From: Notolepis coatsorum
Taxonomy: Eukaryota > Chordata > Actinopteri > Aulopiformes > Paralepididae
Direction of reading: 5' to 3'
NCBI GenBank assembly: GCA_963971535.1
Contig: OZ020598.1
Location: forward strand, 88,612,985-88,676,984
Length of the DNA: 64,000 nucleotides
Shown here: positions 10,701 through 64,000 of the stretch, one piece after another
Position numbering within the stretch: position 1 is the first letter of the stretch
How the letters are laid out: each line of letters starts with the position of its first letter
Notes under the pieces: model-generated
What the model was told of the DNA's origin: nothing
Database searches by the model: none
What the model saw: only the letters and a program-made list of their open reading frames with translations
Program-made: the position numbers and the translations under genes

Positions 10701-13700
10701 ACGCCATCAACACATGACACCAATGGACCCTTTTCACAGACGTGTCATATACATCAACATTACGGCAAATGCGCTTATGAAAGAAGATAAGATGCCAATT
10801 TCCTCTCTGTGTATTCAGTAGAAAGCTATCCGGCTGCAAGATAGCCTAGCTTAGGCACAAATTGATGAAAGCGGATACAGACCACTAACCTAGCTGTTGG
10901 CCAAAAACACCTCTCCCGGAGTTTTAAGCAGCTAGGCTATCGGTCCGTATCCGCTTCCAATCATTTGTATCTGCCCATAATATTGCTGTGTTCCTTTAAT
11001 GATGGATCAGCTTGATTTAGGCATGCCAAAAAGCCAGAACTGACAATAGTGAATAGTATTGTCAATACTGGCTCACTGGCAAACCTAAAACAAGTGGAGC
11101 GATTGCAAAAAAAAAAAGAAAAAAAAACCTTGCCATTTCATCATGACGTTACTATGTAAACATAAACACAAAGGCGCTGTATGCCACTCCTTATCACAGG
11201 AAACAAGAGTTGTATTGCAATTGTCTTCATAAAATTACCAAATGATATAGATTTTACTTCATATTATAGTCTCTAGACAGTGTGTCCATTATTTAGCAAA
11301 AAGCCTTTGCGAATCTTAAAATACAAAAATCCTTTTGACTAACTAACCCCACTTTGACATACTATGTCATGTTTACATAGTCGTCATACTGAGATAAGAC
11401 AGTTAGGTCTCCAAATTAGGAGCCTTTTCAAAGTCTGACACATCAACCACACATTACAGGGTTAAAGGGAATTAACTTACACAGCACATAGAATGCGCAG
11501 TATTTTATTTTTGTAATTTGGGAGGTCAGCTTCCAGGACACCCGACAGGCCTTCCAAGTTGCTCTCCAGGGACGATGTACTCTGTGGGGCATAGGAACTA
11601 TTGTTAATCCCAATATCTTTAAAAACATACAATTTAGTTACGGACGGTACATTGTTTGAACACACACAAGACAAAGCAACCAGGGTAGGAAACTAACTTT
11701 TTCCTTCACCAGCCACAATGGCAAGTAGATTCTTGAATCCCCAAAAAAGAAAATAGAAGAGTCTTGTTGTTTGCCTACGTGTATATTAGTAGCTACATAG
11801 GCAAACTTACCAGCCAGAAGAAATTGACCAGCATTTGGCTGATGGTGGATGAATAGTGTTAATTTTCCACCCTGGAGTCAGCAAGCCATTATAAGTACAC
11901 TTACTGCAAAGATCCATTACCTTCTCTCCTACGCGACATATCAACGACTCGAGCCGGTCTTCGATTTCAATGGGTTCAGAAGTTCTCCTCCGCTTGTGGG
12001 ACTGGCCTCCTAGGAGAGGACGGCAACATGTCAAGAGGAATGTTATTGTGCCTTCATCATGTATGGGATTAAACAACTGCCTTTTTAATATCAGTTGTTC
12101 AGCTCAATGTGTATATTGGCACCTTAACTGCTGGGGTTAGGCCAGGTGTTTGATTCACACTAAGCCACACACTCTGGGTTCTCGTGGTGCTGTAAATCGC
12201 TCTGGATAATCAGTAACGGCTGGGGAACATACTATTAAAAATCAATCATGTTACTGGGATTTAAAAGTAACGCTACAGGCTTTAAAATCTACAAAAAATG
12301 TGCTCTTGATTACTTTACCATTTATGCTCAATGCTAGGCAAATATCTAAATGTCAGAGTAAGGTTAAACATTAATGGTTTCGCCACATCAAACTTCATGT
12401 ATACCTCAAAGTATACACTTTACACACACTACACATTCACACCATATAATTTTGTATCATATGTATTATATAGTATTTATATTTTAATACTACTTTAGTG
12501 TTGTTTTTATGCTGCTATTTTGCGCTGCTTCTATTGTTTTATAGATTCTATCTATTTTATTATATTATCATTGGTGCTGCTGTGAGGTTAAAGAACCAAA
12601 CCGAAATAATTTCACTCACTTGTACTGCTATAATGTGACGATCTGAGAATATAAAGATTCTATTCAGGTTCAATTGCAACATGTGTGACCCACAGTAATG
12701 GAGGTCTTGGTTTCCGCCGCCAATTTACATTTACTAACAACATCAGCTTGCGTCACCATGGTTAGCCATCGCTTTGATGGTACAAGCGAACATAGCTGTG
12801 CTACTAGACCAAAGTGGGGTCCTTGTGGGGCTTCCCCAGCTGAATGAGTAATAGTTTAATATTTAATTCACTATAAGTTAGCCCACAGAGAGTATGAGAG
12901 AATACAAGAATGACTATTGTGAGAGCATAGGCTTCACTCTCTCCACTGTTATTATCTCCCCCACGCCCCACCTACATACATTATAGAATATAGACTATGG
13001 AATTCTGGACTAAAGCACATCTAAAACAATTCTCTCATCAGATAGGGGTCTCTGTGACAAATCAAATGGGGGTCCCTGGCCGACAACGTGTGACTCTGTG
13101 GGTCCTCGGCATGAAACAGTGTGAGAAGAACCAATGCAGGGATTAAAGCAAAAAAAATCTCTTTTTTTCAGGCTTGATTGATTGAAAAGTTTATTAACAG
13201 ATTGCAGAATGGGTACAGTACAGTACAGCTCAATACATGATACAATTGTTAAGGGGATGCAGACCAGAGAAAGACTTTCGTCTTGTTTACATCAGGGTCC
13301 CCCATTTTCAATTCATCATAACATATATGACATACAGATAGACAGTACTGCTACATCTATACATTTATGACATATCAGATTTGCAAATACAGTACTGTTT
13401 GTGATACAAAAATGTCCAGAAAAGGAGTGTATATACATTTGGCGTAGAAACTGTACATTGGAGGAGGTTGGTTGGGTGGGTTGGGTGAGGGCTGTACATT
13501 GGAGGTGGGGGGGGGGAGGGGGTTGGGTAGGGGACACACACACATTTTACACTGTGCATTGGAATATTGACAAAGCCTTACTTGGTCATTTACTGTACAA
13601 CTAGGTTAGGACATTTGTAGGGGCCAGTTTCGAATTGCAGTCTCACGTAGGTGTTTTTTGAGAGTGTTTTTGAAAGTGGGTAGTGATTCACATTCCTTTA

Positions 13701-15033
13701 CAGCTGTGGGTAGGGCGTTCCACATTGATGTGGCATAATTGCGAAACGTGTTTAGTCCCTTGTTTGAGCCGAATCTGGGTTTTACATGATTCGTGGAGCT
13801 CCCTCTGGTGTTGTGATCGTGGTATTCACTGACCTTTGGGAAGTATTTTGACATGTACATGGGTACCTTGGTCGCGTAGTGTATCTTGTAGACCAGGCCC
13901 ATTGCAAGTTGCTGTACTCTGTCGTCTACTCTAAGCCATCCTAGGTAGTCAAAGTGGGCAGGGGTGAGGTGGGTTCTAGGAGTCAGGTCAAGTAGTAGTC
14001 CGACTAGCTTGTTTTGAGATGTTTGTAATTTGTTTTTTAGTGCCTTTGAGGTGCTTTGGTACCATGAGGTGCAAGCATAGTCGTAGTACCCTTGAATGAG
14101 TGCTCCTGCTAGAGTCTTCAGGGTATTCTTGTTTACCAGAGAGGAGATCCGGTACAAGAATCGCGTTCGTTGGTTGACTTTTTTTATTACATTGGATGCC
14201 ATTTTGTCACAGGCCAAGTCATATTCTTATTTTAACCTCCACTATATATTTTGTATTTAATAGCGTTAGCGTTTTAAGTGAACTAAATCATTTTGAACAT
14301 CTTTTCTATTGCCATTTTGCTTTTACGTAATAATATCAATGCTGTTTTCAATTCATTAAATGAAACTGATTGCAAGGGTTGACTGACTGTTACATACTGT
14401 AACTTTTCAGTGCACGTTTTTATTTACATTTATTTTGACAACTGAACAAGCTTATGACTTGAATAAACAATTCTACATACTGTAACTTTTCAGTGCACGT
14501 TTTTATTTACATTTATTTTGACAACTGAACAAGCTTATGACTTGAATAAACAATAAACAAATCTACATACTGTAACTTTGTTTTCAGTGCACGTTTTTAT
14601 TTACATTTATTTTGACAACTGAACAAGCTTATGACTTGAATAAACAATAAACAAATCTACATACTGTAACTTTTCAGTGCACGTTTTTATTTACTATTTA
14701 TGTCACCAGACTCGCCGGTGCAGGCCATGCTGGCTGAGGGGGAGAAATAACAGCGGGTTCACAATCTTTCACAAGAGAAACACTAACGTTATTCAATGTT
14801 CTGCACCGGTTTGAGTGACATTATCCAGCAATGCATATGCACGTGGTTCTCAAACTAGATTCGAACTTGGTATTGTTAAACATAACGGCATTAAGTTAGC
14901 AGCAGTAAATCTTTGGCGTTAGCCAGCGAGCTAACGTGTTGTTACCTGTAGTGTAGCCGAGCACCAAAATGAGCGCCCGGAGTAACGTCTACTACTCACC
15001 ATCGTCTCCGTCACTATGTCGTCTCCTGGACAT
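7661..15033 (-). CDS. NCBP1: NCBP1 (nuclear cap-binding protein subunit 1, CBP80), 5' seven coding exons, partial
   Basis: NCBP1 is the large subunit of the nuclear cap-binding complex. With NCBP2 it binds the m7G cap of Pol II transcripts and acts in splicing, 3'-end processing, export and the pioneer round of translation. Seven coding exons are seen on the minus strand: 15000-15033, 11921-12009, 11481-11581, 10461-10617, 8820-8927, 8357-8478 and 7661-7730. Each has AG/GT borders, and together they give 227 codons with no stop. The protein starts MSRRRHS and has an acidic Ser/Asp-Gly stretch, a KRRR nuclear localisation signal, then the first MIF4G helical repeats (motifs [33 protein letters not shown]). 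Family proteins are about 790 residues, so roughly 70% of the CDS lies left of the window. No frameshift or stop is seen. It is a live, intron-containing gene, not a retrocopy, divergent from TSTD2. Confidence 0.95.
7731..8356. other. NCBP1 intron 6, LINE 3'-end remnant and poly-G run
   Basis: There is a run of about 20 G at 7835-7855. About 7880-8125 resembles a LINE 3' end (GTGAAAGGTGCTATATAGAT followed by TTA repeats). A second A-rich tail lies near 8200. No conserved coding sequence is seen. Confidence 0.45.
8357..8478 (-). CDS. NCBP1: NCBP1 coding exon 6
   Basis: It is 122 nt, with acceptor CTCTCAG and donor GTAAGC. It encodes [20 protein letters not shown] onward to EGYLK. The polypyrimidine tract is very long because intron 5 has a CT-rich simple repeat (8481-8600) directly upstream of the acceptor. 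It ends in phase 2. Confidence 0.94.
8481..8600. repeat. GA/CT-rich simple repeat next to the NCBP1 exon 6 acceptor
   Basis: Units of about 16 bp such as GAGAGGGGAAGGAGAG repeat across 120 bp. On the transcribed strand this is a pyrimidine tract leading straight into the exon 6 acceptor, so it doubles as an extended polypyrimidine tract. Confidence 0.8.
8820..8927 (-). CDS. NCBP1: NCBP1 coding exon 5
   Basis: It is 108 nt, with acceptor CCCCCAG and donor GTAGCA. It encodes [20 protein letters not shown] through VTQEEDVPQ, a conserved MIF4G stretch. Both ends are in phase 0. Confidence 0.94.
9088..9313. mobile_element. Fold-back MITE in NCBP1 intron 4
   Basis: The left arm runs from CATGTTGTTCTTCAT to CAATGGGGCCAAGC. 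The right arm is its inverse, ending ATGAAGAACAACATGG. The arms are about 80-85 bp, with a short loop near 9170-9215. The superfamily is not assigned because the target duplication is not clear. Confidence 0.7.
9342..9991. mobile_element. hAT-like MITE, 650 bp, TSD CCATCAAC, in NCBP1 intron 4
   Basis: The ends are CAGAGCATGTGAGCGG and CCGCTCACATGCTCTG. The exact duplication CCATCAAC lies at 9334-9341 and 9992-9999. Subterminal GAGCGGAGCG repeats occur on both sides. CAG...CTG ends plus an 8-bp TSD fit hAT. It is non-coding. Confidence 0.87.
10461..10617 (-). CDS. NCBP1: NCBP1 coding exon 4
   Basis: It is 157 nt, with acceptor TTCACAG and donor GTAGGC. It encodes the MIF4G segment from [14 protein letters not shown] through [20 protein letters not shown] to EAVYL, very close to the vertebrate consensus. 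It ends in phase 0. Confidence 0.95.
10725..10999. mobile_element. MITE-like repeat with TTAAAGGAACAC end, copy 1 (NCBP1 intron 3)
   Basis: Read on the minus strand from 10999 it starts TTAAAGGAACACAGCAA. It contains an internal inverted pair built on AGCGGATACGGACC and its complement. It matches the TSTD2 intron copy at 27161-27362. The TTAA border suggests piggyBac-like mobility; only one end is clear. Confidence 0.55.
11481..11581 (-). CDS. NCBP1: NCBP1 coding exon 3
   Basis: It is 101 nt, with acceptor CCCACAG and donor GTAAGT, and encodes [20 protein letters not shown] onward to ILCAV. This is the start of the first MIF4G helical domain. The exon ends in phase 2, matching exon 4. Confidence 0.92.
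11921..12009 (-). CDS. NCBP1: NCBP1 coding exon 2 (NLS)
   Basis: It is 89 nt, with acceptor CCTAG and donor GTAATG. It encodes [20 protein letters not shown] and continues to RVGEK. The basic cluster is part of the N-terminal nuclear localisation signal through which importin alpha binds CBP80. The exon ends in phase 0. Confidence 0.93.
12010..13173. other. NCBP1 intron 1, unassigned part
   Basis: No coding or structured element is evident. A fragment near 12990-13130 (GGGGGTCCCTGGCC) resembles the inverse of one near 10170-10220, so small repeat remnants are present. Confidence 0.4.
13174..14225 (-). mobile_element. Non-LTR retrotransposon 3' end, family X, copy A (5'-truncated)
   Basis: Read on the minus strand, an open stretch at 13606-14217 encodes the C-terminal region after the RT (motifs [17 protein letters not shown] and [16 protein letters not shown]). 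A 3' UTR with C-rich runs follows, and an AATAAA-like end with an ATTG-type short tandem tail at 13174-13186. Four more 3' ends of this family occur at 16022, 18121, 20848 and 48884. It is inactive through 5' truncation. The clade is probably Jockey/CR1 group, not certain. Confidence 0.8.
14391..14695. repeat. Tandem repeat, unit about 82-92 bp, about 3.5 copies, NCBP1 intron 1
   Basis: The unit runs from CTACATACTGTAACTTTTCA through GTGCACGTTTTTATTTAC to CTTGAATAAACAA. Copies are nearly identical, differing by a TAAACAA insertion and a TTGT insertion. It lies about 300 bp downstream of exon 1. Confidence 0.85.
15000..15033 (-). CDS. NCBP1: NCBP1 coding exon 1 (start codon)
   Basis: The ATG is read on the minus strand from 15033. 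It encodes [11 protein letters not shown] plus one base of the next Gly codon, followed by the donor GTGAGTAG. At 34 nt it is too short for an ORF scan. The choice rests on the conserved SRRRHS start of the family and on its phase match to exon 2. Confidence 0.93.
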
Positions 15034-15287
15034 CTTTGCTAACGGCGTTCGGTTGATGAATGTAGGCTGTCTTCTCTCGGCGACGTGGGAATTATCAAAC
15101 TATATCAGAAATGAGAGAATAGCAGGCTTTTTTTTTTTAGAGAGAGATGTGTCTCAATGGTGGCTTCTTCAGAAGAATAGCGTCGGTCAGATTCAAGTGA
15201 GACGCATCCGGTGCGGTCACCGCTCAACCGGAAACGTGCGTCGTATTATGTCCTCCGCCGAACTGAGGCTACTCCAAATAAGCAATA
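15034..15287 (-). promoter_or_regulatory. NCBP1 5' flank, left half of the divergent promoter region
   Basis: This stretch directly upstream of the NCBP1 ATG is rich in CpG (around 15190-15260) and holds an ETS-like CCGGAA. It presumably includes the 5' UTR and core promoter. No TATA box is obvious. It ends at the terminal inverted repeat of the 5-kb element. Promoter status is inferred from position only. Confidence 0.5.
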
Positions 15288-15526
15288 GGGGGTATCTGCA
15301 GAGCCGCAGAGCCAGGCTGGACGGGTTGGAGGCGGTCTGGACAAGTATTAGTGGTCTGGACAAGTATTTGCACTACTGCGCACCATTTTCAACTTCACTT
15401 TCGTCTCGTTTACATAGGTACATAGACAGTAATGTTACATCTAGACATTTATGACATGTAATAATAGAGTAAACTTGTAAATAGACAGTAATGTTACATC
15501 TAGACATACCAGATCTAGTAATAATA
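15288..15526. repeat. Left terminal inverted repeat (239 bp)
   Basis: It is a perfect inverse of 20105-20343. It contains internal direct repeats (CTGGACAAGTATT twice; ACAGTAATGTTACATCTAGA twice), which may be transposase binding sites by analogy with other long-TIR elements. Confidence 0.9.
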
Positions 15527-15639
15527 GAGTAAACTTAACTTTCGTCTCAGTAACAATGTTCATAAAGTGTTGAGTGCTACAGTGTAGGTTAGTTTATTAG
15601 GACAAGTGCATGACAGTAAGGTTAGTTAGGGTTAGATTT

Positions 15640-15880
15640 TTTTTATTTAGATAATGGTTGAAGTAGTGAGTCTTTAGTCGACGGCGAAAGATTCGACGGG
15701 ATTCGGCTGTCCTAACTGGGGTGGGTAGTTCATTCCACCATTGTGGGGCAAGGACTAAGAATAGGCGACTTCTCTTTGATGACCCGACTTCTCTTTGATG
15801 ACCCTCCTGGAGCTTGGATAGGAGTAGGAATAAACTGTACATATACAGCACTGTTTGAACCTGGCACACAACATACTTCA
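15640..15880 (-). mobile_element. LINE C-terminal fragment inside the TIR element
   Basis: The minus-strand open stretch has LAPQWWNELPTPVRTAESRR followed by FRRRLKTHYF, typical of the region after the RT in L2/CR1-type LINEs. It is a short truncated copy. A 20-bp tandem duplication (CGACTTCTCTTTGATGACC) lies at about 15769-15802. Confidence 0.55.
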
Positions 15881-16021
15881 CATGTAATTTTTCTTTTTGT
15901 GGAGACGAAGATGATGAGTACCGGTCTTCTCCTCAGACATATAAAATCAGTTTTTCAATACAAGTACGACTCAAGACACAGAACATTAGTATGCAAAATT
16001 AAAAATGAAACAGATTTTGAG

Positions 16022-16140
16022 TGTGAATGAAAACTTTATTTCAACAAGATTGCAGAATGGGTACAATACAGTACGGCTCAATACACACAATTGTAAAGGG
16101 GATGCAGACCAGAGAAAGAAGTTTTGTCTTGTTTTCTCAT
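16022..16140 (-). mobile_element. LINE family X 3' end, copy B
   Basis: It matches the terminal ~120 bp of the copy at 13174 (GATTGCAGAATGGGTACA, GGGGATGCAGACCAGAGAAA). It has the GAATGA-type tail at 16022-16030. It is 5'-truncated to the UTR only. Confidence 0.75.
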
Positions 16141-16634
16141 ACTAAAAACGTGACTGTTAGCACAGAGACGGCTGCAGTTACACACAGGGCCATTTTCATT
16201 TCGTTTTCAGGGTCAGTTTCGCTTTTCAGAACGCAACGTAATGGCAGGCAAGTTAGGCCCAGTCCACACGAGCGCTGGATTTAATATAACCATGATTGTA
16301 TGTGCGCAGTTGCACTGTTCGGCCACACACAACCGGGGATTTGCTACACTGCAACCCCGGTCTTTGAAAACCGGAGTCCAGGGTGAAGTTTTGCGGTTTT
16401 GTGTGGGCATAGCAACCAAGGTTGGAGGGAGGGAGCAGAATTAATTATTCGATATCAGTATAATAACTGGACTTTGAGAAGTCTTTATTCATGCAGACAG
16501 ACACGCAGTTAGTTGGGTCGCTGATGCGTTTGAGTCTCTGCACTCCCTCCCCCCAAGGGCAGCATCGCTCATCGGTGAACCATCACATCTAAATGCCATA
16601 TGAACACAACCAAAAGTAGCTCTCATCTGTGTAC

Positions 16635-17624
16635 CTAAAAACAGTTCTGTAGTCTTCATCGCCAAAGCCAGAGGTATGCTCTATGTATTTCGAGTCCAAT
16701 AATAGAATATCCTGTATGCGTGGCTTCAAGACCTATAATGGGTATGTAAAAATAAGCACAGCATGTCAGTCAGGTTTCTGTGGGAATGTGGATTCTGCTA
16801 TTCTCCCAGAACGGCTTAAGTTTAAGTTTATAAGACACGCATTACTAATTTCACTTACACATAGCACAAAGTGGTTTTCGGTCCAGACTGGAAAGACTAT
16901 TGCATGTTTCATCTTCATGTCAGCCTAATATTTATGAAGCATGAGTTTGCCATTAGAGTAGGGATGTGCCATTATGCTTATTCAATTTACTAACTGAATA
17001 ATTATATTTATTTCATCAATTAATTACACTTACCGGAAATGAAGCTAACGGGTTGATACTTCGGTCCTTCCAGGTAGGAACAACATACATGTCTTCTATA
17101 TAAATGTCCATGTCCTGATGAGGAAAAAACAAACATGATTATTAATAGTCTGCCTTCAGTACCAAAAGTTACTTTTAAATGTGTAATTAAAAAAGACGTC
17201 ATACACGTTTCAGAGCCAGTTCACCAATGAGCTTCAGGCATGCATTTCCAATCTGCAAGAAATCACAATTAAGACATTATAGTGAACATGACTGAAACTC
17301 TCCCTTCGGTAATAAATGTTAATCTGTTAGACCATGTGACTACTCACAGTTGAATCCATATAGCTGTTCAACCCAAGGCTCCAAAACTCATCCCGTGTCA
17401 AACAAGTTTGTCCTTCCTTCACAATTATTTCTTCCGAAGGCCTCTTTCGGTCCAGGACATAACTGAGCTGAAGATAATAACCATTGTTGTGATACAGATG
17501 AGTAGTTTTACATAGAAAGTAATTATTTGTAGAAATTTGCCTACCAGTTGTTGTTGGATAGGGTTTCGGGACTTCGCCCAGGGTTGGTCTGGTGAGTAGT
17601 CATTGTCCACTGGAATCTCAAGTT
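16635..17624 (-). CDS. C48 (Ulp1/SENP-like) cysteine peptidase, six exons of the TIR element gene, partial
   Basis: Minus-strand exons are 17545-17624, 17348-17467, 17205-17252, 17034-17114, 16859-16924 and 16635-16711. All have AG/GT borders and consistent phases, with no stops. The encoded segments read like a C48 fold. DEFWSLGLNSYMDSTIGNAC is the substrate-binding start (compare W-L-x-D-x-x-I-N). YIEDMYVVPTWKD follows. VFPVWTENHFVL holds the probable catalytic His, and ILLLDS a probable Asp. The expected Gln and catalytic Cys exon is not found between 16635 and the left TIR, so activity is doubtful for this copy. C48 enzymes cleave SUMO-like conjugates, and several eukaryotic transposons carry them. 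No host orthologue is suspected; the gene lies wholly within the TIRs. Confidence 0.65.
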
Positions 17625-17938
17625 CTACAGGGATGGACATACACAAAAATATAAGAGAAATAGTAACAATGTTTAATAAAACTAATAGTGTAGAGGTAAG
17701 AATTACTGTAGGTAGGCATAGGTGTTTATAGGCCTGCTTCTGCTGCAGAAGCCAGGTTCTATGGTGTAATAGTTAGCACTCTTGACTTGGAGCAATTAAG
17801 AGTTCACTATTTAAGGTGGTGGGTGGCAGTTTAATATGATTATTGGACAAATCATGCATGGTTTCAGTCAAGGCGGCTAAACTTGAATTTAAGACATTTT
17901 AAGACATTCTAATGACCCATGCATGCAATTCCACTTAC

Positions 17939-18028
17939 TTGTCATTGCTGGGGGCAGACCTGAACCAGCTTCAGGGAGCAAACCTTGAGCTGCTTCCAGT
18001 GATAGATCAAGGACTGCTTCCTGTGACA
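17939..18028 (-). CDS. TIR-element gene, 90-nt exon, duplicated copy 2 (downstream)
   Basis: The acceptor is TGCTTACAG and the donor GTAAGTGG. It encodes SQEAVLDLSLEAAQGLLPEA through GLPPAMT. Phase is 1 at both ends, so it splices in frame to the peptidase exon at 17624. It is a near-identical copy of 19627-19716. Confidence 0.6.
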
Positions 18029-18120
18029 CTGTAAGCAGATGACAAACACAGCTTACCAAGGAACAGTGAAGTTCACTATTTAAGGCGGTGGGTGGCAGTT
18101 TAATAAGATTATTGGACAAA

Positions 18121-19545
18121 CTGGTCAGACTACTGCTTGACCTTACTCCTAGAACCCACCTCACCCCTGCCCACTTTGACAACCTAGGATGGCTTAGAGT
18201 AGACGACAGAGTACAGCAACTAGCAATGGGCCTGGTCTACAAGATACACTACACGACCAAGGTACCCATGTACATGTCAAAATACTTCCCAAAGGTCAGT
18301 GAATACCACGATCACAACACCAGAGGGAGCTCCACAAATCATGTTAAACCCAGAGGCGGCTAGGTGGTGTAGTGGTCTAAGGCACTCGCCACCAGTGTGG
18401 AGACGCTAGGATTCGCGTGTTCGAATCCAGCTCTCCACATTGTTTTTCAGTTTGGCTGGTCGTCCGCAGTAATACACATTGGCCGTATTACGGGGAGGGA
18501 AAACTGAAGGGTGGGGATCGAACGTTGTGAACAAGCGACTCCTACAAGTCGGTTGGTGCGCCTGCGCAGTAGAATCAGGAAGTGTCGGGGGCAGCGTGAG
18601 CCTCCCACGCGTTACTCCTCGACACTAAGAGATCGAGCTGCGCAGGTGAAAAGATGCGACTGCTGTTACCTCAAGTACCGGAGGGGACTTGTGCTATGTA
18701 TGACTTAGTCCACATTGCAGCCGGCTTGTGGGAGGCAAGAAACAGCGTTCGTGACAGGGGAGGGTTGAATTGGATGATACGAAATTGGGATGGGAGAAAA
18801 AATATAGAAAAAAAATGGGAGAAAAAAGTGGATCAAAAAAAAAAATCATGTTAAACCCAGATTCGGCTCAAATAAGGGACTAAACACTTTTCGCAATTAT
18901 GCCACATCAATGTGGAACGCCCTACCCAAAGCTGTAAAGGAATGTGGATCACTACCCACTTTCAAAACCTCTCTCAAGGGACACCTACGGGAGACTGCAA
19001 TTCAACACTGGCCCCTGTAAATATCCTAACCCAACCCCCTCCAATGTACAGTCATTTACCTAGTATGGTTTTGTCAATAGTCCAATGTACAATTTTGTTT
19101 GTTTGTACAGTGTCTCCCCCCCCCCCCCCCCTCAATGTACAGTTTTACTTGTTTATACAGTGTGCCCCCCCCCCCCCCCAACCACCTCCAATGTAAATTA
19201 CCCAGTATGGCTGTCAATATCCCAATGTACCCAACCCCCCCCCACCCAACCTCCTCCAATGTACAGTTTCTACGTCAAATGTATATACTCCCTTTTCTTG
19301 ACTCCTTCTGTATCACAAACAGTACTGTATTTGCAAATCTGGTATGTCATAAATGTATAGATGTAGCAGTACTGACTATCTGTATGTCATGTATCATATA
19401 TGTCCTGATGAATTGAAAATGGGGGACCCTGATGTAAAAGTCTTTCTCTGGTCTGCATCCCCTTAACAATTGTGTGTATTGAGCTGTACTGTATTGTACC
19501 CATTCTGCAATCTGTTAATAAAGTTTTCAATCAATCAATCAATCA
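18121..19545 (+). mobile_element. LINE family X 3' end, copy C, with nested SINE
   Basis: It starts within the post-RT coding region ([22 protein letters not shown]-like sequence at about 18127). It runs through C-rich 3' UTR blocks (19114-19260) to AATAAAGTTTTCAATCAATC at the end. It is interrupted by the SINE 18354-18842. It is inserted in unit 2 of the 269-bp duplication. Confidence 0.82.
18354..18842 (+). mobile_element. tRNA-derived SINE nested in LINE copy C
   Basis: It has a tRNA-like head (GGCGGCTAGGTGGTGTAGTG, B box GTTCGAATCC), a family body and an A-rich tail. The target duplication AAATCATGTTAAACCCAG lies at 18336-18353 and 18843-18860; its first bases are ambiguous with the A tail. 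The insertion split the LINE coding remnant. Confidence 0.88.
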
Positions 19546-19626
19546 GGTTTCAGTCAATAGGCGGCTAAACTTGAATTTAAGACATTTTAAGACTTTCTAA
19601 GGACCCATGCATGCAATTCCACTTAC

Positions 19627-19716
19627 TTGTCATTGCTGGGGGCAGACCTGAACCCGCTTCAGGGAGCACACCTTGAGCTGCTTCCAGTGATAGATCAAGG
19701 ACTGCTTCCTGTGACA
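19627..19716 (-). CDS. TIR-element gene, 90-nt exon, duplicated copy 1 (upstream)
   Basis: It has the same borders and 90-nt length as 17939-18028, with three visible base differences (for example GVLPEA in place of GLLPEA). Phase is 1-1, so inclusion of either or both copies keeps the reading frame. Confidence 0.6.
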
Positions 19717-19857
19717 CTGTAAGCAGATGACAAACACAGCTTAGTAAGGAACAGTGAACTTGATGAATGAAGACATTTATACATTATTTCCTAGATCAAT
19801 TAAAAACAGGATTAATGCATTAAATATCTTTAATGCAAGTGCAAGTAGAAAATGTAC

Positions 19858-20073
19858 CCAATACAGCCTGGTGGTAGCTGTTTATTGCCACCGCTGTCGT
19901 CCCAAATAACTTTTTGATGTTGTCCATTCGCTTCTTGTTTTTGTTGTTGTTGAAGTGTTCTAGGATGTTTCTCATCAGGAACAGATGGGTCGATGGTAGT
20001 TGCTGCGTTAAAAAGTAATTGTTCTTTCTCATTTGTGCAAACAGTTGTTCTGCAACTTGACTGTTTACATGTC
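19858..20073 (-). CDS. Transposase-like C-terminal exon of the TIR element, 5' part missing
   Basis: It is 216 nt, with acceptor ACTGCAG and donor GTACAT, phase 1-1. It encodes GHVNSQVAEQLFAQMRKNNY followed by a helix-rich stretch (HLFLMRNILEHFNNNKN) and ends AVLG. The VNSQ-AEQLF pattern is seen near the end of large fish transposases that I associate with the KDZ group; this is from memory, not a search. Upstream of the acceptor there is only a microsatellite and the TIR, so earlier exons are lost. Confidence 0.55.
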
Positions 20074-20104
20074 CTGCAGTTTGAGGGACTATTATTATTA
20101 TTAT

Positions 20105-20343
20105 TATTATTACTAGATCTGGTATGTCTAGATGTAACATTACTGTCTATTTACAAGTTTACTCTATTATTACATGTCATAAATGTCTAGATGTAACATT
20201 ACTGTCTATGTACCTATGTAAACGAGACGAAAGTGAAGTTGAAAATGGTGCGCAGTAGTGCAAATACTTGTCCAGACCACTAATACTTGTCCAGACCGCC
20301 TCCAACCCGTCCAGCCTGGCTCTGCGGCTCTGCAGATACCCCC
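20105..20343. repeat. Right terminal inverted repeat (239 bp)
   Basis: It is a perfect inverse of 15288-15526. The inner border abuts a short TTA microsatellite. Its outer end is flanked by TACTCCAAATAAG at 20344-20356. Confidence 0.9.
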
Positions 20344-20707
20344 TACTCCAAATAAGAGGACATTGTAGAATGGATTGTACAGTAGGTGGCGGTATGCGCC
20401 TTTTGTGGTCGCGACCCGCCATTAAACCCATTGAAGAAGAAGAAGAAGAAGACGTTTTTTTTGCTCCACGTTTGGAGTTGTTGTTATGATTGAAACCTAA
20501 CGTTATTATGTCTAAATTATATACGTTTGCTTGCTTACATACCAACTAAGTTAAGTCGTTAATTGTGTTCTTTTCTAGAGTAGCGTTGTGTAACATGTGT
20601 ATGTTAATAATCGGATTGGCAGACAAGCAAGTGGCTAATGTTTTTCAGCTTTTTTTCAGGCATGTCTGAATAATAGAAACAGATAAGTTCCCCTAATAGA
20701 GGCTATC
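20344..20707 (+). promoter_or_regulatory. TSTD2 5' flank, right half of the divergent promoter region
   Basis: This is the sequence between the right end of the TIR element and the TSTD2 ATG. It opens with the 13-bp direct repeat TACTCCAAATAAG, and its first part resembles a dispersed fish repeat ending in a GAA run (about 20435-20452). The 5' UTR and core promoter of TSTD2 are expected here; no motif fixes the start site. Confidence 0.4.
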
Positions 20708-41712
<21,005 letters not shown>

Positions 41713-42599: not shown

Positions 42600-43480
42600 T
42601 CACTCAAGGCTAACTGGAGCAAGATGGCGGCGGTTCAGTGACGTCGCTCTCCATTGGCCGGCAGCGCGGGCAAGCTATCTAGTGTTCTATATATATCTAT
42701 GCCTTAAAGTGTTGCGGTCCTGAGAGTGTTGGTGCTCTCGTCCTGCAGCTGGATACTATTGCCTCACAGCGCGGCCGTCAGCGCGCGGCCCAGAGAGCGC
42801 CGCTGGCTCTGCGGCTCTGCAGCTGCATGCTTCTCCGCGAGTCCGGTTGGATAATGCCATGTAAAAAGTCGCATGCCTGACATATCGGCATGTAACTCGA
42901 GAACCGAGGCACGGATTTTGGCGATCCAGATGGCATTCGAACGGCAACGAATAGCGCTTTATTCGGTAATTTATATGTTCGGCGAAAAATGCCGCCCCGA
43001 GCCTTCAGATGCTCGCAAAGGGCCGTGAAACTGAAACTGAAACTGAAAAACAGTGAAACCCCGGACATTTCGATGAATTAATAAACCCCCCCCGCCCCGG
43101 ACGCCCCGGACAGGGCGTGAAAAGAGGACATGTCCGGGCAAAAGAGGACGTTTGGTCAGCCTACTCTACCTGTGCTTTTGTTATGTAAAAACGGTGGCCG
43201 CGCCGAGCCGGTACTTAGTTACAACGAATGGGAACAGCGAATTTTTGTGTGCGTGACTGCGCGTACACGCGGGAACATTTCCGTGCGCGATTGCGCGTAC
43301 TTCAGCCTCAGTGAGCGAGGTATCACAGCGTGATACCGAGTGATACGAGCACTGCAAGCCTGGGGAAGACATTCGGCAAATGACGGCGGGTCCGGGAATC
43401 GAACTCGGAGTCAACCAGAACCGTGACGCAGCACGCCTCCTCCCGACGCAGAAATAGCGCAGAGATACGCAGTGAGCTAC
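42600..43480. other. GC-rich, CpG-rich block inside the hAT-like element
   Basis: It includes GCGCGGCCGTCAGCGCGCGG near 42770 and several short ORFs in different frames, none of which I recognise. Its composition differs sharply from the T-rich flanks, so it may be a separate insertion or a captured fragment. The edges are not resolved. Confidence 0.4.
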
Positions 43481-48094: not shown

Positions 48095-48883
48095 CGTGAC
48101 GTTATATCTGTACTATATCCGTTACTAGTTATACCACTAGGCAGTATGACTTAAATAGTGTCTTTATACCTGTAACACTGTACATACATCTGATCAGCAT
48201 TATTACTCAGTAGTACTCATTTGTATATATCCAGTTTAATCACTTTATACATTCCTATTGCTCTTTACTGTTACATTTGTACTCTGGTTAGATGCCAATT
48301 TATTTTCTTTGTACTGTACTTGTGCTGTAATGACAATGAATGAACAACAATTTAATCTAATCTGATGTAAAGTAGTAAAGTTAAAACACTAATTTGGCTG
48401 TGGGGGCCATGGGGAACACTGTTCAACACTCTCAATGACGAATGTCAACAGGATCTAAGGAGTCGAACAAGGTAATTATTGTAGAAGCTAAACTTTTCTC
48501 CACATAATTATTCTTTATGGGACAATAACATAACTTCAGAATAAGACTATTCAGTAGTAGGAGGTGATTTTACAGTCATACTATTAGTTAAGTCAGTTGC
48601 TCCCATGCAGGTTGAAACTAAAACAGAATTACTGTAGGTGTGGAGAGGACAGTATACATTTAACTCATCATTATAGGGATGGTTATAGGTTAACTCCTAG
48701 TCAAGAGTGAGCCCCAACATTTTCATGTAAATAATAAGATTAGATAAGATATTTCCTTATTGATCCCCTTGGGGAAATTCAGGCATCATAGCAGCATGGG
48801 GAGAGTATAGGTGCAGGTAGCAGAATACATGGTACAGGTCACAGAATTATAGTACAGTGGAGAAGTAAAAATAAATAATTTGA
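48095..48883. other. Intergenic with LINE-like tail
   Basis: About 48735-48870 reads AGATAAGATATTTCCTTATT then GATCCCCTTGGGGAAATTC, a motif common at 3' ends of fish LINEs; orientation is unclear. The remainder is unassigned. Confidence 0.4.
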
Positions 48884-49021
48884 TTGATTGAAAATTGTAT
48901 TAACAGATTGCAGAATGGGTACAATACAGTACGGCTCAATACACACAATTGTTAAGGGGATGCAGACCAGAGAAATACTTTCGTCTTGTTTATATCATGG
49001 GTCCCCCATTTTCAATTAATG
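48884..49021 (-). mobile_element. LINE family X 3' end, copy E
   Basis: Same terminal sequence as 13174-13320 (GATTGCAGAATGGGTACAAT, GGGGATGCAGACCAGAGAAA), with the GATTGATTG tail at 48884. It stops at CCCCATTTTCAATT. Confidence 0.78.
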
Positions 49022-57452: not shown

Positions 57453-59467
57453 GCTACAGGATAGATTTTAAGGTTCTCCTATTTGTTTTTAAAGCCCTTA
57501 ATGGTCACACACCCTCCTACATCTCAGACCTCCTATCCCCCTATTCCAACACCAGGTCCCTCAGGTCAGCCGATCAGAGGCTCCTGACAGTCCGGAGGTC
57601 TAACCTCAAGCTAAGGGGGGGCCGTGCCTTTGCTATCGCAGCCCCTGAACTGTGGAACAGCATCCCCACCTCCATTAGGCTCGCCCCCTCGATAGATGCC
57701 TTCAAATCGAGGCTCAAAACCCACTTCTACCTACTAGCCTTTCCCGTTCACTGACTCATGCCCTGTTTTTCTATGTGTTTGCCTGTGTGCCCTCCCATAA
57801 AACGGAGTGTGATTGTTGTCTATATGTATCTTGTGTATTTACCCTCTGTACAGCACTTTGGTTGACACGCGTCATGTGAAATGTGCTTTATAAATAAATT
57901 TGATTGATTGATTGATTGAGTGGAGCGAGGCCAAAACTGGGCTGATATGTTCATGTTTTTTTGTTTTGGTGAGGAGGCGCGCGGCTGCGTTCTGCACCAG
58001 TTGTAGGCGGCGAAGCAAGGATTTGTCGATGCCCGTGTAAAGGGCATTGCAGTAGTCGAGGCGAGTGGTGACAAAGGCATGTATCACCGTCTCTAGGTTA
58101 CTTTGGGAGAGGTATGCCTTTGTCTTCTCCAGGAGTCTAAGGTGGTAAAAACTGTTTTTGACTACGGCGCTGACCTGTTTGTCAAATTTAAAATTGCTGT
58201 CGAAGATGACCCCGAGGTTCCTGACAGAGGTGGAGAGGTTTGGACCCAGGGGACCAAGTGCGTCAATGAGGGGGGTCGGGGGGGCACTATTAAAAACAAT
58301 GACCTCGGTTTTCCCTTAATTTAATGTCAGGGAGTTTTCAGACATCCAGCACTTGATTTCTGCCAGGCAGTCAAGTAGTGGTGTTATTGATGTTTTCCCT
58401 TGGGTGGGTTTTAAGGGGAGGTAGACCTGCACGTCATCAGCGAAGCAATGGAATAAGATGTTATGTTTTGCCAAGATCTGGCCTAGGGGGAGTATATATA
58501 GGAGGAAGAGAGTGGGACCCAATATCGAGCCTTGGGGCACCCCGCAGGTGAGGGGGGCCACAGAGGAAGTGAAGTCACCAAGTTGGACAGAGAAGGTCCT
58601 ATTACTTAAGTAGGACCGGAACCAGTCTAAGACGGGGCCCCTAAGGCCTACGTAATGCTCGAGGCGAGCTAAGAGGATGTGGTGATCTACCGTATCAAAG
58701 GCGGCTGTGAGGTCAAGGAGTAGTAGTAGGGATGAGTTACCTGCATCAGCAGCTGAAATCAGGTCGTTTAAGACACGGAGGAGGGCCGTTTCAGTGCTGT
58801 GTCGTGGTTTAAAGCCAGATTGGAATTTATCATGGATGTTGTTGTGTTCAAGGAATGATTGTAGCTGTATGTAGACTATGCGCTCCAGGATTTTTGATAA
58901 AAATGGTAATTGTGAGATGGGTCTAAAATTGGCAAAGACAGAGGGATCGAGGTTGGGCTTCTTTATCCGGGGCTGGACCACAGCATGCTTGAAGGCAGCC
59001 GGGACACATCCAGTGCTGAGGCAGGCGTTTAGTAGAGGTAATAATGCGAGGAGGACAGGGTCAGGTACTTCCTTTAGGATGTGCGAGGGGAGTGCGTCTG
59101 AGGGGGGATTTGTTGGTTGCAGGTGTTTAATGGCATCAGAAAGGGAGGAGAGGGAGACCGGGGCAAACTGGTCAAAAACAGCAGGCAGTCACAGTGGGTG
59201 GGGGGGGGCAAGGGGGGCAGGGGGGAGAGAGATCTAAGGGCAGAGACTTTGCTGATGAAAAAGTGTTGGAAGCCTTCACATAGAGCTAATGAAGGTACGA
59301 CAGAGGGAGTGGCACAGGGGTTGATGAGGGAGTTTAGGACTTTGAACAAGGCCTGGGGTTTATTTGAATTTGTTGTGACTAGGTTAGAAATGTAAGTTGT
59401 TTTTGCAATTTTGACAGCCGTTTGGTAGATGGACAGAGCGCTGTGTAGGATTTGGAAGGAGACATGC

Positions 59468-60962
59468 AACAGTGCGCAAGAGCAGCTTGTGCACGAGGTG
59501 CACAGACATGAGCAGAAGAATGCCGCTCAGAGGTATCGCCCCAGAACAGAGTGGACAGAGAGAGCTCACAGAGCAAGTGACACAGACACACGAAGGAACT
59601 GTGAATACTGTGGGAACAGAGCACACAAGGAAGGAGAGAACTGTTCGGCAAGAGGAAAACAATGCACGAAATGCGGAAGATGGAACCACTTTGCTAAAGT
59701 TAGCAGGGCAGGTAGCTTCCAGAAAAAGTCAGTGCATGAGGTGAGCATGCGCCCTGAGTCAGGCGAAGAGTCAGACGAACTATATGTAGACACCGTAACA
59801 GACAGACGGTTTGCTGAAACAGAACAAGCTTTTGCAGACATACAAATAGGAAAACAGGGCACAGAGCTTAAATTTAAACTAGACACAGGTGCACAGGTAA
59901 ATGTAATTCCCTTGAGAGAGTATCACAGCTTGCAAGATAAATGCAAAATCCAGCCTACTTCATGCAGACTGACAGGATATGGTGGAGAGAAGCTCGCAGT
60001 AAAGGGCACATGCACATTGAATTGTAAATACAAAGAGTGTGACATGTTATTGGACTTTTACATTGTAGACACTCAGGCACCCCCAGTTCTAGGCTTACAA
60101 GCATGCCTGAATATTGACCTTATTAAACTAGTGTTGTCAGTCACTGCATACACAGACAAACAAACCATCATGGAAGAATATCACGATGTGTTTAAAGGAA
60201 TTGGACTGTTCCCGGGAGAGTGTCACATCCATATAAACCCAGATGCCACGCCAGTGGTCTGCCCACTGAGAAGGACACCGATCGCCCTGCGCAGCCGCCT
60301 GAAAAAGGAGCTACAACATATGGAAGACACACAGATCATCACCAAGGTCATTGAACCAACGGAGTGGGTCAGTGCACTAGTCATCGTTGAGAAACCACAC
60401 ACAGGCAAGGTCAGAATATGCTTGGACCCAAGGGAGATAAACAAGGCTATCAAGCGCCCGCATTACCCTTTGCCAACACTAGAGGACATCACACCCAGAC
60501 TAATAGGTGCACGCTATTTCAGCGTACTGGATGCAAGATCAGGATACTGGTCCATCAAGCTCTCTCAAGAATCATCAAAGCTGACGACATTCAACACACC
60601 ATTCGGACGGTACAGGTTCCTACGCTTACCGTTTGGACTCGCCTCTGCTCAGGATGAATTCCAACTGAAAATCTACGAGACATACAAGGGTTTAAACGGA
60701 GTAGCAGCTATAGTAGACGACATCCTCGTCTATGGCGCAACCAGAAAGGAGCACAACAAGAATCTCCATGCAATGCTAGAGAGATCACGGGAAAGAGGCG
60801 TCCGGCTCAATGCAGACAAATGCACCATCGGAGCATTTGTGTCAGGGCTGAGTTACTTCGGGCACGTTCTTTCAGCTGACGGCGTGAAGCCGGACCCAGG
60901 CAAAATAGCTGCCATCAAGGAGATGGAGGCGCCAAAGAGCCGTGCAGAGCTGGAGACCGTGC
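59468..60962 (+). CDS. Ty3/gypsy element 1 nucleocapsid, protease and RT (3'-truncated)
   Basis: The zinc knuckles are CEYCGNRAHKEGENC and CTKCGRWNHFAKV (the second lacks the final Cys). The protease motif is KLDTGAQVNVIPL. The RT has LVIVEKPHTGKVRICLDPRE, YFSVLDARSGYWSIKLS, FGRYRFLRLPFGLASAQDEF and the intact box VDDILVYG. The frame is lost at AELETVL, where it meets the LTR of element 2. RNase H and integrase are absent from this segment and may resume beyond the right edge. Confidence 0.85.
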
Positions 60963-61493
60963 TGTCGTATTCGATTTATATAGAATAATCTTCAGGACGA
61001 AGAGATAGCTTTTATATATTTATTCAAAGGTAAGTATCGTTCAGCATGAGTGTAACTCCATTCACGGCTGGCAGCCAACTGACTGTCAGGACCCCTGGTC
61101 AGGTATACATAATAGCAAGGTGCGCCTGGAAATTAAGAAGGGTTGTGCAATACTCTGTAAGAGTTTCTTTGTAAACAATAACAAGTGTGTTACCTGTGTC
61201 AGGACCAGGCAATGTAAACAGGTAGGATTAATATGTTAAACATAAAGATTCATGTATCAAGGTATTACAGTTCGTATTGTGTGCCCTCTTATTCTGGATA
61301 GTCTGCTTTAATATTTGAATACTTCAGCTGTGAATAAGGTATGTATTCATGGCTTATTTGGTCGTGTCTCAACACTCTTACCATATGCAGTTCTTATTTG
61401 TAGAAGTAGCTTGCTAACAAAATGGGAATATATCGACAATTAAGCAAGGTAAGTAGGTCATAGATTCAACACATATAGTAAGTCATCATTTCA
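60963..61493 (-). repeat. Candidate 3' LTR of gypsy element 2 (531 bp)
   Basis: On the minus strand it runs from TGAAATGATGACTTAC to TCGAATACGACA, with TG...CA ends. It is preceded by a purine tract (about 20 A then GGC) that would be the polypurine tract. The partner LTR lies outside the window, so the limits are inferred. Confidence 0.65.
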
Positions 61494-61572: not shown

Positions 61573-63999
61573 TTATAGGTCTAAAATGTCCCGAGGCTTC
61601 ACTGCTCGGCCGGATCTGGTGTAGTATGAAGCTGAGTTCTCTTCTGAGTCCTCTGACAGTTCAGGGTCGTTGGTCTCCGGCGGTTGATCGACGCACTCTG
61701 GACTTGGCATACCGTCGCTGTCCTGGAAGTGTTCCTCTTTTGTGTCCCTCAGGTGCCTGCGGTTGCGGCGGTATTCGCGTCCATCTTGGGTGCGAACGTG
61801 GTATGACCGCGCAGTGTCGGCTGGTTGTATGACTACTGCTGGCCTCCAGCGTCCAAGTTCTTGTAGCCTGACAGATTCACCACACTGTAGTGGGGGCAGC
61901 GGTCTAGCTGACCTGTCATAGTATTTCTTCTGGTGCTTTTGTCTCTGCACTCGCTTGTCATGTCCATCTTTTTGGCTTACTACCCCTGGCCGCAGCTGTT
62001 GGTTGGTGCTCGGGAGGGTTGAGCGTAGCCTGCGGCTCATCAACAGCTGTGCCGGCGATTTGAAGTTGTCGACTGGGGTGTTACGATATTCCAGGAGGCT
62101 TAGGTACGGGTCTCTTCCGTCTGCCTTAGCCTTGTCCATGAGTGATTTTGCCGTCTTCACGGTTCTCTCCGCTAGTCCGTTGCTTTGCGGATAGTGTGGG
62201 CTTGACGTGACGTGTGTAAACTCCCACGACTTGGCGAATGCCTCGAACTCTTTAGACTTGTATTGTGGTCCGTTGTCTGAGACTATGGTCTCTGGGACGC
62301 CATGCCTGGCACAGGCTGCCTTTAGCTTGTGGACAACAGCTGCCGATGTGGTGCTGTGAAGTCTGTCTAGTTCGAAGAATCTGCTGTAGTAGTCGACGGT
62401 CACAACATAGTCCTGGTTGTTCCAGTTAAAGAGATCTGTCCCTACAACCTGCCAGGGGCGGTCTGGGATACGATGAGGCATCATGGGCTCCTTGGTGTTT
62501 GATGGGCGGCGCTCTTGGCATATTGAGCACTTCTCCACGACTTGCTCTATATGTCTACCCATTCCAGGCCAGAACATGATGTCTCGTGCTCTCAGTTTGC
62601 ATTTTTCCATTCCCATGTGGCCTGCATGGATCTTGATCAGCATCTCTCCTCTGAGGCTGGTAGGGATGACTATTTTCTCCCCTTTGAAAATTATTCCATT
62701 CGTTTTGGATAGTTCATCTCTGTGATTCCAGTATTCGGTGATGTTCTGGGGGCATTGTTTTCTTTCCTCAGGCCATCCCTCCAGGATAGCCTGGCTGAGC
62801 AGCTTTAGCTGTGTGTCATTGTCTGTTGTTTCTCTGATCTCCTGTAGCCTGTCGTCGTGTACAGGTAAGCTGTTGTATACCATGTGTACCTGAAGGTCCA
62901 TCCCTTCACTGAGACCGTCGTCGTGAGAGGTGAGTGATTTCCTGGACAGCGTGTCGGCTACTGGGATGTCTTTCCCAGGGCGGTGCACGATCGTGAAGTT
63001 GTACTTGTGTAGTTGTAGTATCATCCTCTGTAACCGCGGTGGGGCTGCGGCGATCGGCTTCTTCATGATCGACTCCAGGGGCTTGTGGTCAGATTGCACC
63101 ATAACATGGCGACCGTAGGCATATTGGTGGAAACGTTTGAATCCATAAAGGACTGCGTACATCTCCTTTTCGATTTGTGCGTAGTTGACCTCGCTGTCCG
63201 TGAGTGATCTGGATGCGTAGCTAATGGGCCTTCCTTCCTGCATCAGCACAGCACCCAGACCATACTTTGATGCGTCCACTTGTAAGCTGAGCTCCTTATC
63301 TGGGTCAAAGTAGATGAGGACTGGCCCAGGTTCACTGGTAAGTATGTCTTTCATCTTTTGGAATGCAGCGTCGTGCTGCGCGTCCCACAGGAACTCATTC
63401 GATTGTTTAAGCAGCTGTCTCATGGGTGCGTTGATCTCGGAGAGGCTCGGGGCGAATTTCGCCAGATAGTTGACCATGCCTAGCACGGTCTCCAGTTCTG
63501 CACGGCTCTTTGGCGCCTCCATCTCCTTGATGGCAGCTATCTTGCCTGGGTCAGGCTTCATGCCGTCAGCTGAAAGGATGTGCCCGAAGTAGCTCACTTC
63601 GATGGCTCCGATGGTGCACTTGTCTGCGTTGAGCCGAACGCCTCTCTCCCGTGATCTCACCATCATTGCATGTAGGTTCTTATCGTGTTCCTCTCTGGTC
63701 GCGCCATATACAAGGATGTCGTCTACTATAGCTGCTACTCCGTTCAGTCCCTCGTATGTCTCGTCGATTTTTCGTTGGAACTCGTCCTGGGCAGAAGCGA
63801 GCCCAAATGGTAATCGTAGGAATCTGTATCGTCCAAACGGTGTGTTGAACGTCGTCAGCTTCGATGATTCTGTGGAGAGCTTGATGGACCAGTATCCCGA
63901 CCTTGCATCCAGTACGCTGAAATAGCGTGCGCCTGTTAGTCTGGGTGTGATGTCCTCTAGTGTCGGCAGAGGGTAGTGCGGGCGCTTGATAGCCTTGTT
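61573..63999 (-). CDS. Ty3/gypsy element 2 pol: RT (part), RNase H, integrase; open across the window edge
   Basis: About 808 codons without a stop. The RT is from the LEDITPRL region through YFSVLDARSGYWSIKLS and the intact VDDILVYG box. The RNase H start is LQVDASKYGLGAVLM. The integrase zinc-binding domain is HAGHMGMEKC...CSIC, and the catalytic triad positions are visible in VGTDLF, VSDNGPQ and LAERTV. An SH3-like C-terminal region follows, and the frame ends RDILDL. All motifs expected for activity are present in this part, so the copy looks young. The gag half is outside the window. Confidence 0.88.
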   Translation of the reverse strand, partial: NKAIKRPHYPLPTLEDITPRLTGARYFSVLDARSGYWSIKLSTESSKLTTFNTPFGRYRFLRLPFGLASAQDEFQRKIDETYEGLNGVAAIVDDILVYGATREEHDKNLHAMMVRSRERGVRLNADKCTIGAIEVSYFGHILSADGMKPDPGKIAAIKEMEAPKSRAELETVLGMVNYLAKFAPSLSEINAPMRQLLKQSNEFLWDAQHDAAFQKMKDILTSEPGPVLIYFDPDKELSLQVDASKYGLGAVLMQEGRPISYASRSLTDSEVNYAQIEKEMYAVLYGFKRFHQYAYGRHVMVQSDHKPLESIMKKPIAAAPPRLQRMILQLHKYNFTIVHRPGKDIPVADTLSRKSLTSHDDGLSEGMDLQVHMVYNSLPVHDDRLQEIRETTDNDTQLKLLSQAILEGWPEERKQCPQNITEYWNHRDELSKTNGIIFKGEKIVIPTSLRGEMLIKIHAGHMGMEKCKLRARDIMFWPGMGRHIEQVVEKCSICQERRPSNTKEPMMPHRIPDRPWQVVGTDLFNWNNQDYVVTVDYYSRFFELDRLHSTTSAAVVHKLKAACARHGVPETIVSDNGPQYKSKEFEAFAKSWEFTHVTSSPHYPQSNGLAERTVKTAKSLMDKAKADGRDPYLSLLEYRNTPVDNFKSPAQLLMSRRLRSTLPSTNQQLRPGVVSQKDGHDKRVQRQKHQKKYYDRSARPLPPLQCGESVRLQELGRWRPAVVIQPADTARSYHVRTQDGREYRRNRRHLRDTKEEHFQDSDGMPSPECVDQPPETNDPELSEDSEENSASYYTRSGRAVKPRDILDL

Positions 64000-64000
64000 T

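Follow-up and report, generated by a model that had tools for sequence, protein, structure and literature searches.

A young transposon insertion between the head-to-head genes NCBP1 and TSTD2 of Notolepis coatsorum, probably a non-autonomous member of the KDZ/Zisupton type

Zisupton elements were first characterised in fishes and are described as multi-exonic (PMC9297572), and 8-bp target duplications are reported for them (PMC12730594). For ISL2EU elements, repeats of 6–259 bp that usually start with GG have been described (PMC4482050), and for Ginger1 repeats of about 40–270 bp, with a Ulp1 protease domain in some members (PMC2836005). Here we analyse a 64,000-nt stretch of the Notolepis coatsorum genome (hereafter the window; contig OZ020598.1, positions 88,612,985 to 88,676,984), in which a 5,066-bp element bounded by a perfect inverted repeat lies between NCBP1 and TSTD2; searches for further copies were made in the 3.42 Gb assembly of the same genome. 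The element is likely a non-autonomous cut-and-paste transposon of the KDZ (Zisupton) type that recently inserted at the target CAAATAAG between the two genes.

The arms of the element form an inverted repeat of 241 nt (15286–15526 and 20105–20345), 100% complementary and enclosing a spacer of 4,578 nt; among the 15 inverted pairs of at least 60 bp listed for the window, it alone reaches 100% identity. The original prediction had proposed perfect 239-bp terminal inverted repeats (TIRs) on a transposon of about 5.06 kb between divergent NCBP1 and TSTD2. The perfect repeat, its position and tblastn matches to both genes bear this out, the repeat being the same one counted with an outer TA; its 239-bp cores, delimited by repeat detection and arm alignment, lie at 15288–15526 (plus strand) and 20105–20343 (minus strand). 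Other genomic copies place the ends of the whole element at 15283 and 20348, with an asymmetric left terminus CAATA (15283–15287, plus strand) and a right terminus that reads GAGTA inwards (20344–20348, minus strand). Directly outside these tips stand two identical copies of CAAATAAG (15275–15282 and 20349–20356), the 8-bp target site duplication.

It had also been claimed that a 13-bp direct repeat flanks the element and that its left copy, offset from the TIR by CAATA, is odd for a simple insertion. The direct repeat exists: TACTCCAAATAAG is found at 15270–15282 and 20344–20356, with no other exact copy in the window. The oddity does not hold, since CAATA is the element's own left tip and the 8-bp duplication lies outside it; given asymmetric tips and an 8-bp target duplication, simple insertion accounts for the flank. 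A 13-bp duplication with an offset was rejected because other copies place an 8-bp duplication outside the CAATA and GAGTA tips. Read against those copies, the 13-bp repeat is TACTC followed by one target copy, the right-hand TACTC being the element tip and the left-hand one genomic. The latter apparently arose most simply by chance, though it may instead be what a former excision left behind. The site before insertion would have read CTACTC-CAAATAAG-AGGACATTG.

A genome search with the left arm returned 1,371 first-look candidates, 40 of which were scored; all were 241/241 at 100%, the window's own two arms included, and a further 39 partial matches showed 72–94% identity. That the perfect repeat might be an assembly artefact has nothing to recommend it beyond that perfection, and is hardly credible given the same 241 bp at 100% in 38 other places, in copies with different flanks and their own 8-bp duplications. 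The exact CAATA end pattern occurred 342 times in the genome and the GAGTA end pattern 784 times (reversed controls, 0 for each). On one contig (C1), an inverted GAGTA end was found within 15 kb of 23 of the 33 CAATA ends, and like also faced like there, with two CAATA ends facing CAATA and four GAGTA ends facing GAGTA.

The comparison of both ends covered 14 distinct paired copies, among them the one in the window; all were chosen from the best-matching arms, which biases the set towards young copies. The left tip was CAATA in nine and GAGTA in three, the right tip GAGTA in ten and CAATA in three; the exceptions were L016 at both ends and L019 at one. The 8 bp outside the tips matched those of the partner end at 8/8 positions in nine copies and at 7/8 in two, with a maximum of 6/8 in 182 partner-swapped control combinations. 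The arms of 12 of the 14 copies aligned over about 239 bp with 0–3 mismatches and 0–6 gap columns, which argues that the repeat length is a family trait; those of L027 and L028 aligned over 74 and 130 bp only. Interior sequence is also common to L027 (99.2% over 2,768 bp) and L030 (99.3% over 1,920 bp). These copies bear on a further reading, in which an element that duplicates TA, either Tc1/mariner or one of the PHIS group like ISL2EU, landed in a pre-existing 16-bp tandem repeat. TA does stand on either side of the repeat core, whose first bases are GG as is usual in ISL2EU repeats, and some fungal PHIS elements are reported to duplicate TA (PMC12730594). However, ISL2EU is described as duplicating AT, not TA (PMC4482050), and CAATA and GAGTA are nearly fixed in the other copies, with the 8-bp duplication outside them. 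On the tips and the 8-bp duplication as scored in the 14 paired copies this reading was rejected, and we regard it as very improbable. No description of the family was found in those parts of the literature that were searched, repeat libraries not being covered.

These comparisons of copies show a real and young insertion. The sister copy L030 has the same long interspersed nuclear element (LINE) at the same two junctions and 24 derived sites in common with the window copy. Over 4,003 aligned interior bases, seven substitutions were private to the window copy, two of them at the junction of a nested short interspersed nuclear element (SINE), and six to L030. The figure of about 5 in 4,000, or 0.13%, sets a maximum age for the insertion at this site, since the split from L030 may precede the hop. 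None of the 14 further copies in the comparison covers the SINE, and only L030 among these has the LINE at the site. The absence of differences between the arms (0 in 239) agrees with youth. The perfect TIRs had been taken to imply youth or gene conversion; the roughly five private substitutions in about 4 kb relative to L030 speak for youth, and since near-perfect arms occur across the family, youth suffices and local gene conversion is neither needed nor excluded.

The assignment to a superfamily was made from gene pieces in the element and its relatives. A transposase-type exon fragment (19850–20086, minus strand) is cut off near the right repeat of the window copy. A genome search with it gave 153 matches, and the open frame extends to 232 amino acids at L033, L034 and L036. 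A SAP-like exon upstream of this frame, tested from L033, scored just under the Pfam cut-off (E 4e-5, 23.5 bits, cut-off 23.9), while further upstream in L041 a CxC4 domain (PF18717), which Pfam describes as 'associated with KDZ transposases', was clearly detected (E 4.5e-12, 46.4 bits, cut-off 26.9). This relative (L041/L042) carries the same gene and the same repeat tip with CAATA; the window copy is truncated and is without the CxC4-bearing part of the gene. CxC4 in the fuller relative and the 8-bp duplication together favour the KDZ/Zisupton type. The element is thus best read as, and probably is, a non-autonomous member of that type, an assignment made by duplication, TIRs and gene features.

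An 8-bp duplication is usual for hAT elements too (PMC12730594), and the same insertion could have been mobilised by another 8-bp superfamily such as hAT, the KDZ-type pieces being passengers. That no KDZ transposase domain was scored in Pfam and no complete autonomous copy was found would fit this alternative. It appears unlikely nonetheless, as 16 of the 20 loci L011–L030 have the transposase-type piece (it was not seen in L011, L013, L018 and L029), the fuller gene, which carries CxC4, stops at the same CAATA tip, and no hAT transposase or dimerisation domain was listed for any scanned piece, a whole autonomous copy not being among these.

Several observations weigh against a recent KDZ/Zisupton-type insertion. 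The KDZ transposase domain PF18758 was not detected, the 228-amino-acid exon and a 412-amino-acid join giving no Pfam family at all, although the whole gene was not recovered. Nor was a complete element with both repeats and the whole gene found, and three gene-carrying upstream stretches showed no GAGTA end at the upstream side of the gene; the sole GAGTA match there (L044) is a diverged tip (three of 20 positions mismatched) in the opposite orientation, at a distance of about 8 kb. Three of the 14 paired copies (L016, L019 and L027) are without a target duplication (4/8, 1/8 and 0/8 among the three), and worm Zisupton elements without target duplication are described in one paper (PMC9297572). 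At the locus itself, a TACTC ahead of the left duplication would arise by chance in only about 1 in 1,024 cases, and the left flank had a single match in the genome assembly, so that no second, empty haplotype was seen.

For the KDZ/Zisupton-type insertion we envisage that a transposase from a fuller copy elsewhere would recognise the 239-bp repeats and the CAATA/GAGTA tips, excise the element and join it to an 8-bp staggered target. The source element of the window copy would already have carried the nested LINE, and the SINE would have been gained after the split from L030, either here or in the source.

On the minus strand, reading from the right arm, the interior comprises the transposase-type exon fragment, a doubled exon, six exon-like pieces, LINE remnants and the left arm. 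Splice signals accompany seven exon-like pieces (16635–18028, minus strand), which appear to be the later part of the transposon gene, with a phase break between the fourth and fifth; a second copy of the first piece lies at 19627–19716 (minus strand), recognised by inspection of splice signals, which were checked for eight pieces in all. The doubling belongs to an internal tandem duplication of about 269 bp on the minus strand (first unit 17801–18069, second unit 18070–18120 plus 19546–19761). Its units differ at 3.2% of sites (8/250) while the arms differ at 0/241, and hence only that this duplication predates the last hop can be concluded. The second unit is interrupted by the nested LINE 3' end (18121–19545, plus strand), both junctions of which recur in L030, and the LINE in turn contains a tRNA-like SINE, named by eye (18355–18842, plus strand), between 19-bp flanking repeats (18336–18354 and 18843–18861).

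None of the scanned pieces of the window copy reached a Pfam cut-off, and the seven exon-like pieces had no match in Pfam or the PDB. They look Ulp1-like by eye only: hhalign against three protease sequences scored 23.3, with one of 20 shuffles higher (26.7), and a hidden Markov model of the three sequences gave 7.6 bits. Searches of viral contigs with the exon proteins found no relative, and an 18-mer matching two IMG/VR loci (L001 and L002), alike over 26 bp only, was taken as chance. Rfam and tRNA scans of the window returned no matches. In an alignment of ten copies spanning 1,111 bp (960 bp for one copy), there was no sign of purifying selection on the gene pieces; 14 of 491 exon sites were variable vs 25 of 620 intron sites, and the codon variants comprised ten non-synonymous and four synonymous changes, a stop among them. 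The pieces seem to evolve about like non-coding DNA, as would decayed exons.

The remaining LINE-related sequence extends into the arms themselves. Next to the left repeat lies the C-terminal remnant of a LINE open reading frame (ORF; 15597–15932, minus strand), which matches a LINE-like frame at 57623 (tblastn E 3e-8) and whose PDB search gave one match at E 0.92; a LINE 3' tail fragment, recognised by repeat comparison, follows at 16024–16124 (minus strand). Local alignment further showed about 113 bp of the repeat (15383–15495, minus strand) to be similar to a LINE 3' untranslated region; the LINE copy at 13173–13650 in NCBP1 intron 1 gave a score of 69 and the nested LINE one of 57, and 500 mononucleotide shuffles reached at most 32 and 28, respectively. 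The LINE ORF end adjoins the CAATA arm here, in a copy on contig C4 and in the gene-carrying relative L042, and the GAGTA arm of the window copy has the LINE tail without the ORF. This suggests that a LINE tail was captured and copied to the other arm, the direction and timing being our reconstruction. We tentatively propose, with slightly less than even confidence, that a LINE 3' untranslated region is the source of about 113 bp in each arm (and, judged by eye, of what remains of the inner 145 bp), and that a gene-poor derivative then outpaced its parent. Further LINE 3'-end copies lie at 13174–14012 (NCBP1 first intron), 20848–21000 (TSTD2 first intron) and 48880–49020. A 20-bp exact match to repeat positions 11–30 at 42803–42822 is possibly due to chance, the stretch itself being repetitive.

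The genes beside the element are arranged head to head, with NCBP1, whose product is an RNA-cap-binding protein, on the minus strand to its left and TSTD2 on the plus strand to its right. With human protein queries, tblastn gave six pieces of NCBP1 (12010 down to 7661) and eight of TSTD2 (21071–41682). With both first exons read by eye, the NCBP1 ATG is at 15031–15033 and the putative TSTD2 ATG at 20708, 250 and 360 bp from the element, respectively. The start codons are 5,675 bp apart, or 601 bp once the element and one target copy are subtracted. NCBP1 intron 1 also holds a tandem repeat (14500–14701; period 94 bp, 2.2 copies).

The insertion may have divided a promoter under which NCBP1 and TSTD2 would once both have stood, and a separation of shared elements, as in the original prediction, is plausible. 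The CpG observed/expected ratio is 1.2 and 1.03 beside the genes vs 0.47 inside the element; the CpG values beside both genes are not extreme (rank fraction about 0.09–0.24 of window positions) and are no proof of a split promoter. Also compatible with the identity of the element is that it lies in an intron of the TSTD2 5' untranslated region, with the first exon on the NCBP1 side and the shared promoter unsplit. A candidate donor CAA|GTGAGA at 15194–15202 scores 7.6 bits, whereas the non-coding donors listed for the TSTD2 side reach 4.9 bits at most, and about 50 bp ahead of the putative ATG there is a CAG acceptor. Yet the window has about 0.28 donors of such strength in every 250 bp, and a simple AG-exclusion filter rejects the acceptor; we hold this arrangement to be possible but rather doubtful.

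A preference of the family for CpG-rich targets was also considered. In 18 copies, CpG per base was higher in the flanks than in distant DNA (11 of the 12 pairs, p 0.006; p 0.014 when this copy is left out), but the observed/expected ratio in the same copies was not significantly so (p 0.054; 0.12 without this copy). A replication sample comprised 20 further copies, chosen by position out of the CAATA list. Here CpG density differed only from pooled windows (p 0.009), not from window DNA (p 0.41) or per-locus controls (p 0.24), and an excess of G+C appeared only relative to the second control set (pooled, p 0.007, and per locus, p 0.03, compared with p 0.25 for window DNA). The preference was not replicated and no claim is made.

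Individual loci of the family showed further features. Identical insertion flanks occur on several contigs for L009, L017 and L026 (and for single ends at L011, L013 and L029); in L009, L017 and L026 the element copy seems to lie within a segment that was itself multiplied. Near 127.30 Mb of contig C4, six CAATA ends in one orientation stand about 40 bp apart, an array of element tips, with three more in the opposite orientation about 4 kb away. The C4 copy (L031/L032) measures 12.9 kb owing to a nested BEL/Pao-like long terminal repeat element, named by eye, and has its own target duplication, ACTCATGA. Elsewhere in the window, an inverted pair about 88–94% alike (60439–60963 and 63482–64000) adjoins a gypsy-like pol frame, also named by eye (59429–60988); the pair has no match to the element's repeat and is cut by the window end.

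The locus is a clean and datable case of a transposon inserted between head-to-head genes, and it illustrates how a flank repeat can come to look 13 bp long and offset. It also introduces a young and numerous family, probably of the KDZ/Zisupton type, with asymmetric tips outside long perfect repeats. Should some individuals or closely related species still lack the insertion, the site would provide a natural experiment on the need for a shared promoter.

Compared with described systems, the family resembles Zisupton/KDZ elements in its 8-bp target duplication, TIRs and multi-exon gene, as well as in the KDZ-associated CxC cluster of the fuller relative L041; it differs in that the window copy encodes no complete transposase and PF18758 gave no match in the exons found. 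With hAT elements it shares the 8-bp duplication, but its gene pieces come from a gene that has a KDZ-associated domain. Long repeats beginning with GG recall ISL2EU, whose AT duplication is not seen here and whose YqaJ and THAP genes did not appear among the scanned pieces. Ginger1 offers a likeness in repeat length range and in the Ulp1 domain of some members (Ulp1-like by eye only here), and differs by its CCGG/CCGT duplication and TGTNR ends, neither found at this locus. Tc1/mariner elements, finally, are set apart by their TA target duplication, as the TA here belongs to the tips of the element.

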